Below are positions 991 through 16,909 of a stretch of 49,771 nt of DNA, piece after piece (position 1 is the stretch's first letter; every line of letters begins with the position of its first letter). The DNA comes from a virus: IMG/VR virus record IMGVR_UViG_3300048927_000742, positions 1 to 49,771 of that record; one strand, written 5' to 3'. A program made the translations under genes and the position numbers. The notes beneath the pieces were generated by a model. The model ran no database searches, was not told the DNA's origin, and saw only the letters and a list, made by a program, of their open reading frames with translations.

Positions 991-1228
991 TCTTCGCTTC
1001 GTCGTCGGCCCACTGCAGCACCTTCGACTTCTTCCACTTTTTTTCGTTGCCGATCACCAGCGGAGCAGGGAAGCTCCCGCGCACCGCGACGCGCTCCAGG
1101 AAGCCGCGACGGTTCGGCGCGCCATACTTGGTAGTAAGCCCCAGCAGCACGGCGCAAGCGTCGGCTGACAGGTAGCAGTCGCCAGTGGCCAGCGCAGTGA
1201 TCAAGTCGATGACTTCAGTCTTGTCCAT
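974..1228 (-). CDS. excisionase / AlpA-like DNA-binding protein
   Basis: Small basic protein of 84 aa, last gene of the leftward early operon, overlapping the 3' end of the integrase gene tail to tail. The middle (YLSADACAVLLGL, then NRRGFLERVAVRGSFPAP) fits the winged-helix/MerR-type helix-turn-helix of AlpA or excisionase proteins, in which the 'FPxP' stretch precedes the wing. Its position next to int supports a directionality-factor role. The start is the ATG at 1228, which shares one base with the stop of the upstream gene (TGATG). No close family member is recognised, so an ordinary prophage regulator remains possible. Confidence 0.6.
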   Translation of the reverse strand: MDKTEVIDLITALATGDCYLSADACAVLLGLTTKYGAPNRRGFLERVAVRGSFPAPLVIGNEKKWKKSKVLQWADDEAKISRAA

Positions 1229-1575
1229 CAGGTCGATTCCAGGATGAAGCGTGGATTGATGTTCCAGCCGGCCTCGCGCGCGCCGAGCAGGCGCAGCTCG
1301 TTGGCGTCGAAGTCGTCCAGGCGCAGCCAGGCAATGGCTGCATCGATGTGTGCTGGCGAGAAGGGGCGGGCGTCGGAGAACATCCCGTAGACGGTCGAGC
1401 GCTGGCACTGCCACGGGCCAACCAGATCCTGCATACGCTTGCCGTCTTCGGCGAGGTGCCGGCGCAGCAACTGCCGCACGGTGGCCTTGCCCAGCGGCAC
1501 GCGGATCGGGCGGCCGCCGCGCGCCATGCCGTTGTGCGGCGACTGCCGGGGAAGGGAGCGGGTGCCGTCAGCCAT
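1228..1575 (-). CDS. hypothetical protein with possible helix-turn-helix
   Basis: Protein of 115 aa in the leftward operon. After a basic, glycine-rich N-terminus, residues ~30-65 (VRQLLRRHLAEDGKRMQDL followed by CQRSTVYGMFSDARPF) look like a helix-turn-helix with a short recognition helix. The C-terminal part (IDAAIAWLRLDDFDANELR) is helical and acidic. The ATG at 1575 overlaps the stop of the J-domain gene by 8 bases (ATGGCTGA), which favours this start over upstream in-frame codons. Probably a DNA-binding regulator; the function is inferred only from the fold-like pattern. Confidence 0.65.
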   Translation of the reverse strand: MADGTRSLPRQSPHNGMARGGRPIRVPLGKATVRQLLRRHLAEDGKRMQDLVGPWQCQRSTVYGMFSDARPFSPAHIDAAIAWLRLDDFDANELRLLGAREAGWNINPRFILEST

Positions 1576-10885: not shown

Positions 10886-10970
10886 TGCCGCTGTCGGGAG
10901 TCGAACCGAGGGACCGTCGTCCCCGAACCGCCGGGTTATCTACCCGGTGCTCTCCGTGAGCTGCAGCGGC
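10886..10970 (-). tRNA. tRNA-like sequence, aberrant (anticodon position GAT)
   Basis: The leftward strand folds as an 85-base tRNA-like structure. The acceptor stem is seven perfect pairs (GCCGCTG at 10964-10970 with CAGCGGC at 10887-10893). A D-like stem GCTC/GAGC encloses only five loop bases. The anticodon stem CCGGG/CCCGG has loop TAGATAA. A long variable arm contains the hairpin GGGAC-GACG-GTCCC, and the T-loop is TTCGACT. The anticodon position reads GAT (Ile), but U33 is replaced by A, the D-loop is very short, the T-stem pairs imperfectly and no CCA is encoded. It may be a decayed or atypical phage tRNA or a tRNA-mimic RNA. Confidence 0.45.
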
Positions 10971-12418: not shown

Positions 12419-12624
12419 GCCGCGCTCCCGCCGTCAGTCGGCGCATTGCCATGCCGGATTGCCCGCGAGCGCTCCTGGATCCGCCCAACAACCTCATTCC
12501 CCTCCCGGCCCAGGCGCTGCGCAGAACGGATGTCCCGCAGCGCCTGGGCGTCACTGATACCTGCGGAGCGCGCAGCCGCACGGGCGCTCTGGAAAGGACG
12601 CAGGGTGAGGATCTGTGCGCTCAT
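12415..12624 (-). CDS. small hypothetical protein (69 aa)
   Basis: A basic, helical 69-aa protein (SARAAARSAGISDAQALRDI...) with a possible short helix-turn-helix (ARSAGISDAQAL). It is the second gene of the leftward operon, with ATGA overlaps on both sides. In lambda, this position close to pL is taken by regulators such as N, and the basic composition would allow RNA binding, but there is no sequence match to any N protein. Confidence 0.55.
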   Translation of the reverse strand: MSAQILTLRPFQSARAAARSAGISDAQALRDIRSAQRLGREGNEVVGRIQERSRAIRHGNAPTDGGSAA

Positions 12625-13046
12625 GCCGCCATCCCCAGCACGCGCTCAATGGCGGCTTCGTCGCCCGACATCAGGGCGCGGCCGAGCTCTTCCGGGCGCA
12701 ACGTGGCGCGCGGCAGCTGCTCGTAGGGGTTGGGCAGATCGCGGATCTGGTTGATCAGCTCGCGGCGCGCGGCGATGCGCGTCAGCAGGCGCTGCATCGA
12801 CGTGGCGTACATCGGGCCGCGCTCGTCCTGGGGCGACAGACGCTCGCCTTCCAGTGGTCCGAAGCTCAGCAGCATGTGCCGGCGAGCGGCTTCGAAGGCA
12901 ACAGCCGGATCGGCGCCGGCGAAGTGGGCGGCTAGGTAGGCCACCACGCAACCGGGATCAGTCAGGCCGGCGTTGTAGAGGTTGGTGCGCAGGACCGGGA
13001 TGTTGTTCCGGGTCTTGGCCAGCTGGTCCTCGGTCTGCTGAAGCAT
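12621..13046 (-). CDS. first gene of the leftward early operon, hypothetical
   Basis: A 141-aa helical protein, first gene after the leftward early promoter. The ATG at 13046 is preceded by GGAGAG at a good distance. It contains a segment with regular hydrophobic heptads (MLQQTEDQLAKTRNNIPVLR), a central helix (DPAVAFEAARRHMLLSF) and an Arg-rich stretch (RLLTRIAARRELINQIRDL). No family is recognised. Expression should be immediate-early and under repressor control. Confidence 0.7.
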   Translation of the reverse strand: MLQQTEDQLAKTRNNIPVLRTNLYNAGLTDPGCVVAYLAAHFAGADPAVAFEAARRHMLLSFGPLEGERLSPQDERGPMYATSMQRLLTRIAARRELINQIRDLPNPYEQLPRATLRPEELGRALMSGDEAAIERVLGMAA

Positions 13047-13104: not shown

Positions 13105-13133
13105 ATTAAACACCGCGTTTAAACATAAATCAA
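13105..13133 (-). promoter_or_regulatory. leftward early promoter (pL-like)
   Basis: Read leftward: -35 TTGATT (13133-13128), 17-bp spacer, -10 TTTAAT (13110-13105), predicted start about 13098. The arrangement is identical in type to the rightward promoter at 15.6 kb (TTGACT, 17 bp, TTTAAT). The two operator copies at 13106-13122 and 13130-13146 cover the -10 and -35 respectively, so repressor binding would block polymerase. It drives the operon that runs to 974. Confidence 0.7.
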
Positions 13134-13146
13134 CACCATGTTTAAA
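13106..13146. promoter_or_regulatory. left operator pair (oL-like)
   Basis: Two copies of the phage operator. Site 1, TTAAACACCGCGTTTAA (13106-13122), is a near-perfect palindrome. Site 2, TCAACACCATGTTTAAA (13130-13146), is the consensus in reverse orientation. The same 17-base motif (TTAAACATGGCGTTTAA in its best form) recurs at the right operator 2.5 kb away and I saw it nowhere else in the window. Start-to-start spacing is 24 bp. Presumed targets of the CI-like repressor and the Cro-like protein. Confidence 0.7.
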
Positions 13147-13178
13147 CACGGGCGATGCGGAGGCCATGAATCCTATCT

Positions 13179-13443: not shown

Positions 13444-13514
13444 AGGCTAAGCCAGCGGAACTCTGGCGAGCGCCTTGAGTCTCAAGCAATGGAAGGAACA
13501 ACCAGGAGGATTGT

Positions 13515-13541
13515 ATGCGAGACGTTATCGACGGCCTTTAA
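13515..13541 (+). CDS. possible 8-codon leader peptide
   Basis: ATG at 13515 with an ideal AGGAGG seven bases before it encodes only MRDVIDGL before a TAA. The Shine-Dalgarno is the strongest in this region, yet the frame is tiny. It is followed 17 bases later by a perfect hairpin and then by the DUF4760 gene, which has its own ribosome site. This looks like a leader-peptide/attenuator layout, or the remnant of a truncated gene. Confidence 0.35.
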   Translation: MRDVIDGL

Positions 13542-13558
13542 ACAGAGTTCGCACGACG

Positions 13559-13580
13559 CTACCCGCCGAAAGGCGGGTAG
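13559..13580 (+). terminator. GAAA-tetraloop hairpin upstream of DUF4760 gene
   Basis: Perfect 9-bp stem CTACCCGCC/GGCGGGTAG closed by a GAAA tetraloop, followed by only three T (TTTGC). It is a stable RNA hairpin that may act as a weak terminator or attenuator between the 8-codon frame and the DUF4760 gene, or as an mRNA-stabilising 5' element. Confidence 0.5.
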
Positions 13581-13609
13581 TTTGCATTCAGGGATTAGGA
13601 GAACAGGGA

Positions 13610-14083
13610 ATGGACTTTTTTTGCTCGGAGCTCTTCCGCAACTTGCTGGTTTTGGCAGGTGTGATCGTTGCGATTGTGAGCGTCGTCACCGCACGCACAC
13701 TGGCGCGTAAAAAGCAGACGGCGGACATGCTCTTCGCGAGTCGAAGCGACGAAACACTTCAGCTCGGGTTGCGACATATCCGCGAATACAGCACCGGATC
13801 AAGCAACATCCGGGCTCTAGTAGATGTCGAATCAGACGAAGTGGCCTCGATCAAGTATGTGCTGAATCACTTCGAGACGCTCAGCGTCGGAATTCAGTCA
13901 GGCATCTACGACGAAGGGATGATCAAGAAAAGCTGGTGCAACATGATCTGCGATGCCCACAAATGGGCTACCCCGTTGATCGACGAGATTCGGACAAAGC
14001 GTGCAAGGCCAACAGTGCTTCAGGAGCTAGATTGGTTGGCAAAGCGTTGGAATGACAGCACTCTTGAAAGGCGGAAGCCATAA
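13610..14083 (+). CDS. membrane-anchored DUF4760 protein
   Basis: A 157-aa protein starting at the ATG at 13610 with AGGAG ten bases upstream (a longer frame from 13475 would include the hairpin and is rejected). An N-terminal membrane span (NLLVLAGVIVAIVSVVTA) is followed by a basic stop (LARKK) and a cytoplasmic helical domain with the DUF4760 pattern (VASIKYVLNHFETLSVGIQS, GIYDEGMIKKSWCNMI). It lies between the immunity operators, converging on the repressor operon, in visibly AT-richer DNA. That is typical of lysogenic-conversion genes; a role in superinfection exclusion is plausible but inferred. Confidence 0.75.
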   Translation: MDFFCSELFRNLLVLAGVIVAIVSVVTARTLARKKQTADMLFASRSDETLQLGLRHIREYSTGSSNIRALVDVESDEVASIKYVLNHFETLSVGIQSGIYDEGMIKKSWCNMICDAHKWATPLIDEIRTKRARPTVLQELDWLAKRWNDSTLERRKP

Positions 14084-14087
14084 AAAA

Positions 14088-14110
14088 AACCCGCTTCGGC
14101 GGGGTTTTTT
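14088..14110. terminator. bidirectional intrinsic terminator
   Basis: Stem CCCGC-TTCG-GCGGG (14090-14103), extended by A/T pairs with one G bulged, with a T run on the right (14105-14110) and an A run on the left (14082-14089) that is a T run on the other strand. It closes the rightward DUF4760 transcript and the leftward repressor operon between converging stops. Confidence 0.85.
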
Positions 14111-14120
14111 GCGTTTGGGC

Positions 14121-14309
14121 TCAGCGCTTCCGCTGTAGCAGTCTGGCGATCAGCTTTCCCTTGATCCACTGCAGGCTCCAGGCCCGGCCATCGGCACGGA
14201 CGATCGTGGACACGTTGGAGTCCTTCTTCTTAGCCTCATTGACCCACTTGGCCATGCGCTTGTTGAAGCGCCTGAGCTTTGGCGAGTCGTCGCCATCATC
14301 CTCAGTCAT
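14121..14309 (-). CDS. small basic protein, last gene of repressor operon
   Basis: A 62-aa very basic protein. The ATG at 14309 has AAAGGA immediately upstream; a TTG at 14327 is possible but weaker. An N-terminal acidic patch (MTEDDGDD) precedes KLRRFNKRMAKWVNEAKKKD and a strand-rich end (VSTIVRADGRAWSLQWIKGK). The C-terminal half is similar in pattern to another small gene of this window (16203-16376: VTTIIRVGDAVFALRWVDGR), suggesting two members of one small family. Function unknown; expected to be expressed in the lysogen with the repressor. Confidence 0.6.
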   Translation of the reverse strand: MTEDDGDDSPKLRRFNKRMAKWVNEAKKKDSNVSTIVRADGRAWSLQWIKGKLIARLLQRKR

Positions 14310-14346
14310 TGTCCTTTGCAACCGCAATATTTTTGACTTGACCTAG

Positions 14347-14706
14347 TTACACCATCTTGTCGCCTGCAGCGTCCCTGTCCATCGCAATGATCTCTGCCAA
14401 TGCCCAGATGCCGACGAGTACCCAAGGCACGATTAGCCATCCTGTGAGGAGCGTCAGCAATAGTTGAACGACGCCGCGACCGTTGTAGCCGGCGTAGAAG
14501 TTGTGGATACCTAGCGTCCCCAAGAACAGCCCCAGGATGATGTACACACCCCGGCTCTTGGCCGTCTTAATTGGTTGCTGAAATGCGGGGGCATGGTAGT
14601 TCTGCGCCTGCACATGCGCCTGCCTCAGCGGCGCACCGCAGCCGACGCATGCCAGCGCTTGATCACTCACCTCCCGACCACACTCATCGCACTTGATTAA
14701 AGCCAT
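14347..14706 (-). CDS. zinc-ribbon plus TM2-domain membrane protein
   Basis: A 119-aa inner-membrane protein. An N-terminal zinc ribbon (IKCDECGREVSDQALACVGC) is followed by a short linker and a TM2 domain: two membrane spans around GTLGIHNFYAGYNGRG (the G-x-H-x-F-Y-x-G signature), then VVQLLLTLLTGWLIVPWVLV and an acidic DRD near the end. The gene overlaps its upstream neighbour by 10 bases (ATGGCTTTAA) and belongs to the leftward repressor operon, in the place of lambda rex genes. A membrane lysogenic-conversion function is plausible. Confidence 0.85.
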   Translation of the reverse strand: MALIKCDECGREVSDQALACVGCGAPLRQAHVQAQNYHAPAFQQPIKTAKSRGVYIILGLFLGTLGIHNFYAGYNGRGVVQLLLTLLTGWLIVPWVLVGIWALAEIIAMDRDAAGDKMV

Positions 14707-15086
14707 TCCATTTCCCCTGTTGTGTCCTTCACCAGACCAGCCTCATCGAAGGCGATCCCCTCCACCCGGCACTCTCGACCGCGCTCCATTTTTTCAAGCA
14801 GGTTAGTCAGTTCCTCATCGGACAAGCACTCGATGATCCCGCTGACCTGCATCGTTTCTTGCCGCACTAGCCACTTGAGCCAATACATATTCCCAAGGTC
14901 ATTGATTCGGCTGTAAAGCACGTCCCGCTGCAATGCATTGAGTCCGCCCCCTGCGGCAGGATCCTCCTTTCCTACGACGGTCAGCCTACGCGGCGGTGTC
15001 CTGGTTTGGATCCCCATTTCGGCGGCCAGCTGCCGCGCCATTGCCTCTAACTCCTGCTTGCTTTTTCCCATCTGCCGCACACTCAC
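14697..15086 (-). CDS. hypothetical protein translationally coupled to the repressor
   Basis: A 129-aa protein whose GTG start overlaps the repressor stop (GTGA), so it is almost certainly translated from the same mRNA. The N-terminus is charged (GKSKQELEAMARQLAAEMGI), the middle helical (LQRDVLYSRINDLGNMYWLK), and the C-terminus acidic (SDEELTNLLEKMERGRE). No family is recognised. Coupling to the repressor means it should be made in the prophage state, a feature of exclusion or conversion genes. Confidence 0.7.
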   Translation of the reverse strand: MSVRQMGKSKQELEAMARQLAAEMGIQTRTPPRRLTVVGKEDPAAGGGLNALQRDVLYSRINDLGNMYWLKWLVRQETMQVSGIIECLSDEELTNLLEKMERGRECRVEGIAFDEAGLVKDTTGEMEWL

Positions 15087-15556
15087 CCTGTGGAACGAAG
15101 CCTGGCGGCGACCTCCCTCGCAGCATCGTCCAAAGACGCTCCGCTCAGGCTCTGCGTTCCCGATTCCTGAACCATAGTCGCCGCCTCAGTGAGCAGCTGG
15201 ATGTAGCGCTCCCCCTCGATCGGCTCGATTGCCATGTCCTGAACCCGGCGGGCAATGGTCACCGCTGCGGCCATGATGTCGCGCATCGATCCCGCAGATT
15301 GAGATTGGCGCGCTCCGCCCTCTCGGACGAACATGGGCTTGGCGCCTTCAAGAATCCAATTGGCGCTGATCCCTAGCCGCTGCTGCACCTGTGAAGCTCC
15401 TGACGCACTGACGCCAGTCTTCCTGGTTTCCCAATTCTTGATGTTCTGAGGCGACTGGCCGATCTCGCGCGCCAGCTCGGACTGACCACGAAGGCGAGGG
15501 TCTACCTGGGCTGCGGCCTCGTAGAGGCGTGCCATTGAGGGGTGCATGTCGGGCAT
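15083..15556 (-). CDS. CI-like phage repressor (XRE family HTH)
   Basis: A 157-aa repressor. Residues ~25-70 form an XRE/CI helix-turn-helix (RGQSELAREIGQSPQNIKNW, then ASGASQVQQRLGISANWILE). The C-terminal half is helical (MRDIMAAAVTIARRVQDMAI) and shows no S24/LexA-type Ser-Lys protease motif, so induction by RecA-stimulated self-cleavage is not evident. The start at 15556 is favoured because operator copy 1 (15574-15590) lies just upstream; ATGs at 15547 and 15535 are alternatives. Likely binds the 17-bp operators at both ends of the region and regulates its own operon. Confidence 0.85.
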   Translation of the reverse strand: MPDMHPSMARLYEAAAQVDPRLRGQSELAREIGQSPQNIKNWETRKTGVSASGASQVQQRLGISANWILEGAKPMFVREGGARQSQSAGSMRDIMAAAVTIARRVQDMAIEPIEGERYIQLLTEAATMVQESGTQSLSGASLDDAAREVAARLRSTG

Positions 15557-15573
15557 GCGCAATTGTCCCGCCA

Positions 15574-15628
15574 CTAAACACGGCGTTGTTACACATGGCG
15601 TTGACTGACGTTTAAACATGGCGTTTAA
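15574..15628. promoter_or_regulatory. right operator triplet (oR-like)
   Basis: Three copies of the 17-base operator in the repressor/Cro intergenic space: CTAAACACGGCGTTGTT (15574-15590), TTACACATGGCGTTGAC (15589-15605) and TTAAACATGGCGTTTAA (15612-15628). The third is the best palindrome and overlaps the -10 of the rightward promoter. The second covers its -35. The first lies at the repressor promoter. The graded similarity recalls oR1-oR3 of lambda. Confidence 0.75.
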
Positions 15629-15629
15629 T
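15601..15629 (+). promoter_or_regulatory. rightward early promoter (pR-like) with leaderless output
   Basis: -35 TTGACT (15601-15606), 17-bp spacer, -10 TTTAAT (15624-15629). The predicted first transcribed base is about 15636-15637, which coincides with the A of the Cro-like ATG at 15637. There is no Shine-Dalgarno, so the mRNA appears to be leaderless. The in-frame ATG at 15628 lies inside the -10 box and cannot be transcribed from this promoter. Confidence 0.75.
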
Positions 15630-15636
15630 GCTCGCC

Positions 15637-15876
15637 ATGAACCCGACCGCCCCCAAGAAGCTGCACCCTGACGCCGCGCTGCTTGATTCCCTCGGTGGCC
15701 CGGCCGCCGTCGCGCGTGCGCTTGGTTTGAACAAGCGTACCGGCACCCAGACCGTCCAAAACTGGAAGTACCGGGGAATCCCCGAACTGACGCTGCTGAA
15801 GAACCCCAAGGTCTTCAAGGCGCCGAAGCCTCTGGTCGGTGTATCGGCAGAGGAGGGCGTGGCCAATGCTGCTTGA
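15637..15876 (+). CDS. Cro-like DNA-binding protein
   Basis: A 79-aa protein, divergent from the repressor, with a Cro/YdaS-type helix-turn-helix (LLDSLGGPAAVARALGLN, then TQTVQNWKYRGIPELTLL). The motif 'GGxxxVAxALG...VxNWxxRGIPE' is typical of phage Cro proteins. It would repress the repressor promoter during lytic growth. The start at 15637 is preferred to 15628 because the latter lies within the -10 box. The C-terminus (KAPKPLVGVSAEEGVANAA) is an unstructured tail. Confidence 0.85.
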   Translation: MNPTAPKKLHPDAALLDSLGGPAAVARALGLNKRTGTQTVQNWKYRGIPELTLLKNPKVFKAPKPLVGVSAEEGVANAA

Positions 15877-16202: not shown

Positions 16203-16376
16203 CTACGCCGGCCACGGGTCAGGGCCGGCCTGACGCGGCCTGACGGACCAGCAGTGCATGCGGCCATCGACCCAGCGCAACGCAAACACCGCATCACCCA
16301 CCCGAATGATCGTCGTGACGTTCGGGGCTCTCTTTCTCGCTGACCTGATTCGTCTCTGCAAAGCGGCTTTGTCCAT
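16203..16376 (-). CDS. small basic protein related to 14121-14309 product
   Basis: A 57-aa gene from the ATG at 16376 (MDKAALQRRIRSARKRAPNV) to the TAG at 16203-16205. After a basic helix the sequence VTTIIRVGDAVFALRWVDGR parallels VSTIVRADGRAWSLQWIKGK of the repressor-operon gene at 14.1-14.3 kb, suggesting a shared small fold. The ribosome site is weak. With the 64-aa gene downstream it forms a two-gene leftward unit placed between cII and cro. Confidence 0.5.
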   Translation of the reverse strand: MDKAALQRRIRSARKRAPNVTTIIRVGDAVFALRWVDGRMHCWSVRPRQAGPDPWPA

Positions 16377-16429: not shown

Positions 16430-16909
16430 ATGAACATCCTCGATGCAGCACACAAGACGGTGAAGGAATACCCGGGCGGCTCCGTGGCCCTGGCCACACG
16501 CCTGATCCGCATCAATGACGACGGCCAGGAAGTGCCGATGTCTGACGCGGTCCTCCGCAACAAGGTCAATCCGAACAACAGAACGCACCACCTGACCCTG
16601 GCCGAGGCCAGCGAGATCATGGGGCTGACCGAGAACTACCGGATGCTGCACGCGCTGGCGGCGGAGCATGGCTTCGTGCTCCATCGCTCCGACGCGCCCG
16701 AGGCCGGGTCGCTGATCGGCGCGCTGATCGACGCCGGCGAGATCAAGGGGAAGCTCTGCCAGATCATCGGCGACGCTCTGGACGACGACCGCATCACCCG
16801 CAACGAAGCGCTGCTGATCGCGGCGACCTGCAGCGACCTGCAGGAGGTGGCTTCGCACATCGCCCAGCATGCCCACGCAGCCGTTGCGAAGGCGAGAGCG
16901 GCAGCATGA
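16430..16909 (+). CDS. CII-family phage regulatory protein
   Basis: A 159-aa protein with the pattern of the CII/CP76 phage regulator family: LDAAHKTVKEYPGGSVALAT, AVLRNKVNPNNRTHHLTLAE, then EIMGLTENYRMLHALAAEHG. It keeps the 'LRNKVNP...HHLTLxEA' helix-turn-helix core. The C-terminal half is helical (ITRNEALLIAATCSDLQEVA), fitting a multimerisation domain. It is the first rightward gene after the leftward pair at 15.9-16.4 kb and presumably activates lysogeny promoters, perhaps one driving that pair toward the repressor. Confidence 0.85.
   Translation: MNILDAAHKTVKEYPGGSVALATRLIRINDDGQEVPMSDAVLRNKVNPNNRTHHLTLAEASEIMGLTENYRMLHALAAEHGFVLHRSDAPEAGSLIGALIDAGEIKGKLCQIIGDALDDDRITRNEALLIAATCSDLQEVASHIAQHAHAAVAKARAAA

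Follow-up and report, generated by a model that had tools for sequence, protein, structure and literature searches.

The window analyzed here, a virus record of 49.8 kb taken at its full length of 49,771 nucleotides, carries a leftward unit in which the gene for a CI-type repressor is followed by genes for a 129-residue protein (hereafter P129), a membrane protein that combines a zinc ribbon with a TM2 domain, and a basic protein of 62 residues, with a terminator at the end. To the right of CI lie Cro, the small leftward ORFs p64 and p57, CII, an O-like replication protein and a helicase-like protein. A DNA search against phages returned no match for the window. The features on which the following discussion draws are listed by coordinate, with E-values of profile matches in parentheses:

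13113-13151, no strand assigned: likely OL-like site, with two GTTTAAAC palindromes (13117, 13140), upstream of a leftward gene (12621-13046)
13475-14083, plus strand: DUF4760 gene, convergent on the terminator (PF15956, 4e-32)
14090-14103, both strands: bidirectional intrinsic terminator, a perfect G+C-rich hairpin with T-runs on either strand, scored as a terminator on plus and minus
14121-14309, minus strand: 62-residue basic protein, net +9
14347-14706, minus strand: zinc-ribbon and TM2-domain membrane protein, 119 residues (PF05154, 3.3e-11)
14697-15086, minus strand: P129, phrog_27415, repressor-linked (profile match and adjacency to the repressor)
15083-15556, minus strand: CI-type repressor, 157 residues, ATG at 15556 (HTH_3, 0.001; HTH_19, 9e-4; phrog_18068, 2e-12)
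15557-15627, no strand assigned: CI/Cro intergenic operator region, containing one GTTTAAAC palindrome (15610-15617)
15628-15876, plus strand: Cro-like regulator (phrog_8008, 4e-16; P22_Cro, 0.017)
16203-16376, minus strand: p57, a small protein between cro and cII on the CI strand
16430-16909, plus strand: CII-type activator (PF06892, 3e-30)

An earlier note on this DNA had described a tightly coupled cassette in the position at which lambda carries rexAB, and the layout holds up in detail. The GTG start codon of P129 lies inside the CI stop (GGGTGAGTG), the zinc-ribbon/TM2 gene overlaps P129 by exactly 10 bases (ATGGCTTTAA), and the ORF for the 62-residue protein, 37 nt after TM2 and provided with an AAAGGA Shine-Dalgarno-like sequence, is indeed the last gene before the bidirectional hairpin. 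P129 and TM2 are real genes and not chance ORFs because each matches established profiles (phrog_27415 at 7e-16 for P129; PF05154 at 3e-11 and phrog_10292 at 2e-23 for the TM2 protein). Three GTTTAAAC palindromes occur in the window against 0.04 expected, and their sole positions, 15610, 13117 and 13140, all adjoin early promoter regions. The palindromes are likely CI/Cro operators forming OR-like (15610) and OL-like (13117 and 13140, upstream of the leftward early operon) sites, which places the unit between the two, as rexAB is placed in lambda. The 62-residue protein and p57 are paralogues (BLASTP 1e-7 for the pair), and their genes look placed to flank an establishment transcript driven by CII; a single-sequence search of viral contigs with the 62-residue protein found none. 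At two other loci, L121 (83% identical) and L189, p57 has a relative on the CI strand, upstream of CI. Elsewhere in the region, the DUF4760 gene, with a G+C content of 52% vs 65% for the window and a hydrophobic N-terminus, is another moron candidate, and a tRNA-Ile (GAT) is predicted at 10886-10970 on the minus strand, within the leftward early region.

P129 consists of an N-terminal helix, a PxLxVV-like stretch and a helical C-terminal domain, and its match to phrog_27415 spans residues 13-123 of 129, with 11 of 11 homologues matching the same profile. Comparison with homologues supports equally well a start at an in-frame ATG five codons in, which would give a product of 124 residues (MGKSKQEL...). 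The protein has no match in Pfam and only chance-level matches among solved structures. Single-sequence scans of viral and genome contigs gave nothing; homologues surfaced through genomes of the host family and a profile. Nine of 297 genomes from the host family of Stenotrophomonas rhizophila encode a homologue, whose gene in all nine cases immediately follows a same-strand gene for a short HTH regulator, and the profile built from these nine retrieved 79 viral loci. The sole homologue in an annotated phage is gp43 of Stenotrophomonas phage S1 (32% identity), which overlaps the repressor gp44; this repressor belongs to the same SQ class as the window CI (see below), but S1 differs in having no TM2 and in carrying a convergent DUF4124 gene after gp43. 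Because phrog_27415 has no assigned function, and a limited search of the open-access literature found no paper describing it, the assignment of P129 as a repressor partner, developed below, appears to be new.

The positional association of P129 is with one class of repressor. Among the 87 loci counted, which are those where a candidate ORF stands upstream (77 from viruses, nine from hosts and the window), P129 immediately follows a repressor that has a common helical C-terminal domain of ~75 residues (E <1e-3) in 86, a count that is partly circular for sequence, although not for position, since the viral loci were gathered with the P129 profile and the profile of the C-terminal domain was built from 24 of the same repressors. 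The loci are not independent, and weight is therefore put on position and on clusters, of which the 86 repressors form 31 at 60% identity. At one linker position, S-Q or S-H is found in 85 of the 86 P129-linked repressors as against about 4% in shuffled sequences; the one exception (L189) has SL, and the one locus outside the 86 (L159) has a divergent repressor in which SH is still present. The window CI itself is composed of an HTH, a linker with the SQ motif at residues 85-86 and the helical C-terminal domain. The Peptidase_S24 profile matches none of 32 P129-linked repressors (the window CI and 31 relatives) and is present in all eight examined repressors without P129. The repressor of L011 is informative in this respect: its N-terminal DNA-binding part is 65% identical to that of the window CI over 82 residues, and it carries S24 and has no P129. 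One DNA-binding part can thus be joined either to S24, for self-cleavage, or to the SQ/helical domain in company with P129, and we infer that P129 may supply the regulation otherwise given by S24.

Other proteins can occupy the P129 position. Queries with the repressor C-terminal domain found none among phage records, and a class-level search returned weak, chance-level matches only. Searches with this domain did, however, recover SQ/SH repressors lacking a P129 relative at threshold, each with another protein overlapping the repressor stop. The occupant is a 153-residue PAS-domain protein at L215 (PAS_3, 2.5e-12), a locus also found in a viral contig; a membrane protein at L219; a short protein at L218 and at L222; and a remotely P129-like protein at L223, L260, L262 and L265 (as a group, hhalign probability 93%, E 4e-7), where the E-values of slot-partner comparisons are those of single comparisons. 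A scan for further partners like that of L260 found none. Judged by eye, the PAS, membrane and short partners start with a helix resembling the P129 N-terminus. Tentatively, repressors with an SQ linker and the helical C-terminal domain might each be paired with a co-transcribed partner in which the same type of N-terminal docking helix is joined to an input domain that can be exchanged (the P129 domain, a PAS sensor or a membrane domain), a scheme that we regard as possible but speculative. The prophage repressor overlapped by a PAS-domain protein, at L215 (1032-2097) and L287 (1897-2962), possibly represents an environmental sensor wired to a CI-type repressor. An order-level search returned mostly one chromosomal XRE regulator beside a convergent glyS (L261, L263, L264 and L266-L285), which served as a weak control; its C-terminal domain is common with the phage repressor, and it is possibly a domesticated repressor. 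In this regulator SQ is absent at the aligned position and a partner is absent in seven of seven loci inspected, but the repressors without SQ amount in essence to a single orthologous lineage, and the correlation between SQ and partner therefore rests on few independent losses.

The membrane gene follows a different pattern. The TM2 protein scores 43.7 bits against PF05154 (curated cut-off, 27.9), has two CxxC knuckles, CDEC and CVGC, at its N-terminus (Zn_Ribbon_1, 20.7 bits, below the cut-off of 25) and contains two hydrophobic regions, at 53-72 and 76-110. A match to the superinfection immunity protein family PF14373 has an E-value of 0.2 and spans 22 residues only. Whereas P129 is tied to a repressor class, TM2 is tied to none in particular: ZnR-TM2-type proteins are found behind S24 repressors in seven loci, abutting in six (L003; L004, equivalent to L016/L224, from Stenotrophomonas rhizophila; L252; L229; L096; and L099, most of them no more than tens of bases away), and at L005 the TM2 gene lies 220 bases behind an S24 repressor. 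In L005 and L099 the TM2 domain is joined to a different N-terminus. At L224, a second zinc-ribbon membrane protein (1002-1469, minus strand) stands in tandem behind the ZnR-TM2 gene, a duplication in this slot. When the next same-strand gene behind P129 is compared across loci, its product is classed as secreted or membrane-bound by a hydrophobicity rule in 15 of 21 distinct clusters vs 22% of background ORFs (P 2e-6). Lipoprotein signals are seen in several of the remaining third genes, at L125, at L179 and, in L156, in an alternative frame. The best reading of these data is that TM2 occupies a cargo slot usually holding lipoproteins, secreted proteins or membrane proteins, and that the TM2 protein is a candidate for superinfection exclusion or lysogenic conversion.

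On balance, we find it somewhat probable that this is a lambda-like immunity region whose lysogenic operon, the unit described here, consists of two independently exchanged modules, with P129 as a dedicated repressor partner that sets or releases repression and TM2 as separate cargo with a candidate role in exclusion or conversion. P129 travels with one S24-less repressor class while the membrane gene varies, so P129 is probably a control partner and not half of a Rex-like pair. Against this, co-transcription with CI could merely reflect a convenient lysogenic slot, and P129 might act on the host. In the alternative that takes up these points, P129 would be an independent lysogen-expressed effector, anti-phage or host-modulating, placed on the repressor promoter and hitch-hiking with the repressor class. 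Morons accumulate in lysogenic operons, and the third slot clearly does collect them, yet P129, unlike the third gene, is retained across about 31 clusters of repressors and is absent behind the S24 repressors examined, and the proteins that take its place in other loci have N-termini that look related; we therefore consider an independent effector unlikely.

Less likely still is the proposal of the earlier note that P129, as a soluble sensor, and the TM2 protein, as a membrane effector, work in a single exclusion system, in which P129 would sense a superinfecting phage and drive the TM2 protein to depolarize the cell. The proposal draws on the rexAB-like position, on the translational coupling of a soluble with a membrane protein, and on experimentally supported analogues, namely Sbash gp30/31, CarolAnn gp44/43 and Butters gp30/31, lysogen-expressed soluble and membrane pairs whose membrane parts have four TM segments (PMC7542560). 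Those pairs are co-conserved, whereas the two genes considered here are exchanged independently: TM2 is absent from the loci of 86 other P129 homologues, and P129 is absent from the TM2/S24 loci. The gene set, for which the note had advised a search in other prophages, is therefore not conserved; in the loci examined, P129 and TM2 are never together outside the window, and the regular neighbor of P129 is the repressor. A two-component Rex model is unlikely because of this independent exchange and because TM2, with its two hydrophobic regions, does not have the four-segment topology of RexB, Sbash gp31, CarolAnn gp43 and Butters gp31. The note was correct that no cassette member matches RexA or RexB (none in Pfam, PHROGs, PADLOC or NCBIfam), and PADLOC returned no defense match for the cassette, only a weak regulator HTH similarity of CI. 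The likeness to lambda cI-rexA-rexB lies in a leftward operon behind cI between OL and OR, presumably expressed in the lysogen here as well, with a membrane protein at its end; the genes are unrelated, and P129 goes with the repressor and not with the membrane protein. The exclusion genes of Pseudomonas phage Fc02, also considered for comparison, have another arrangement, upstream of the repressor and with a DEDDh-exonuclease-like product (PMC9936078).

Two further alternatives have fared worse. The TM2 protein might be a regulator of prophage induction, a membrane sensor feeding back on the repressor, and not an exclusion protein; TM2 recurs directly behind S24 repressors and membrane proteins do occur among the repressor partners (L219), but the unrelated lipoproteins and secreted proteins in the third slot fit cargo better, and we judge such a role quite improbable. 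Finally, a toxin-antitoxin-like pair, in which CI or its C-terminal domain would neutralize P129 and make prophage loss costly, would suit the common layout of an HTH protein overlapping a small downstream partner and a weak resemblance of CI to YdaS (7e-5, below cut-off), but is very improbable for an immunity repressor situated between operators with Cro and CII nearby, with PAS and membrane proteins, unlike toxins, among the alternative partners and with no match to a toxin family.

Returning to P129 as a control partner, the first module would consist of P129, made from the CI message in the lysogen, and a repressor that has no S24 self-cleavage domain. Through its own N-terminal helix, P129 would probably bind the SQ linker or the helical C-terminal domain of the repressor and might then either stabilize repression or release it on some signal, in place of the S24/SOS switch; a signal-released co-repressor and an antirepressor held inactive appear about equally plausible on present sequence evidence. 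In the second module, the cargo slot, the zinc-ribbon/TM2 protein of the window would probably act at the inner membrane in superinfection exclusion or another form of lysogenic conversion, exclusion being the most plausible in view of other envelope proteins that lysogens express. Somewhat similar in layout to the first module is the repressor/antirepressor pair ImmR-ImmA of ICEBs1, in which an S24-less HTH repressor and a co-transcribed, overlapping partner provide another route of induction, ImmA being a zinc protease with an HExxH motif. The P129 gene is likewise directly behind, and overlapping, the gene for an S24-less repressor, but P129 has no HExxH motif and indeed no histidine, and is not a metalloprotease. 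TF-smORF modules, which were studied for S24 repressors only, provide non-SOS control of CI through a small protein whose gene is divergently transcribed and TF-activated (PMC10432266); P129 would also give small-protein, non-SOS control, although its gene is not divergent and its repressor lacks S24. The authors of that study set non-proteolytic CI proteins aside on the ground that these require additional factors from phage or host (PMC10432266).

How phages with S24-less repressors are induced is an open question, such repressors having been excluded from a recent study of non-SOS induction (PMC10432266), and P129 could fill this gap. With a recurrent partner conserved in position, a candidate interaction motif and occasional replacement by a PAS-domain protein, the question is now directly testable. 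Additionally, the regulatory slot can now be separated from a variable envelope-cargo slot, and it is in the latter that exclusion functions are to be sought. If the scheme of a common docking helix with exchangeable input domains were true, different phages would plug different signals into one repressor class, a modular form of non-SOS control in temperate phages.
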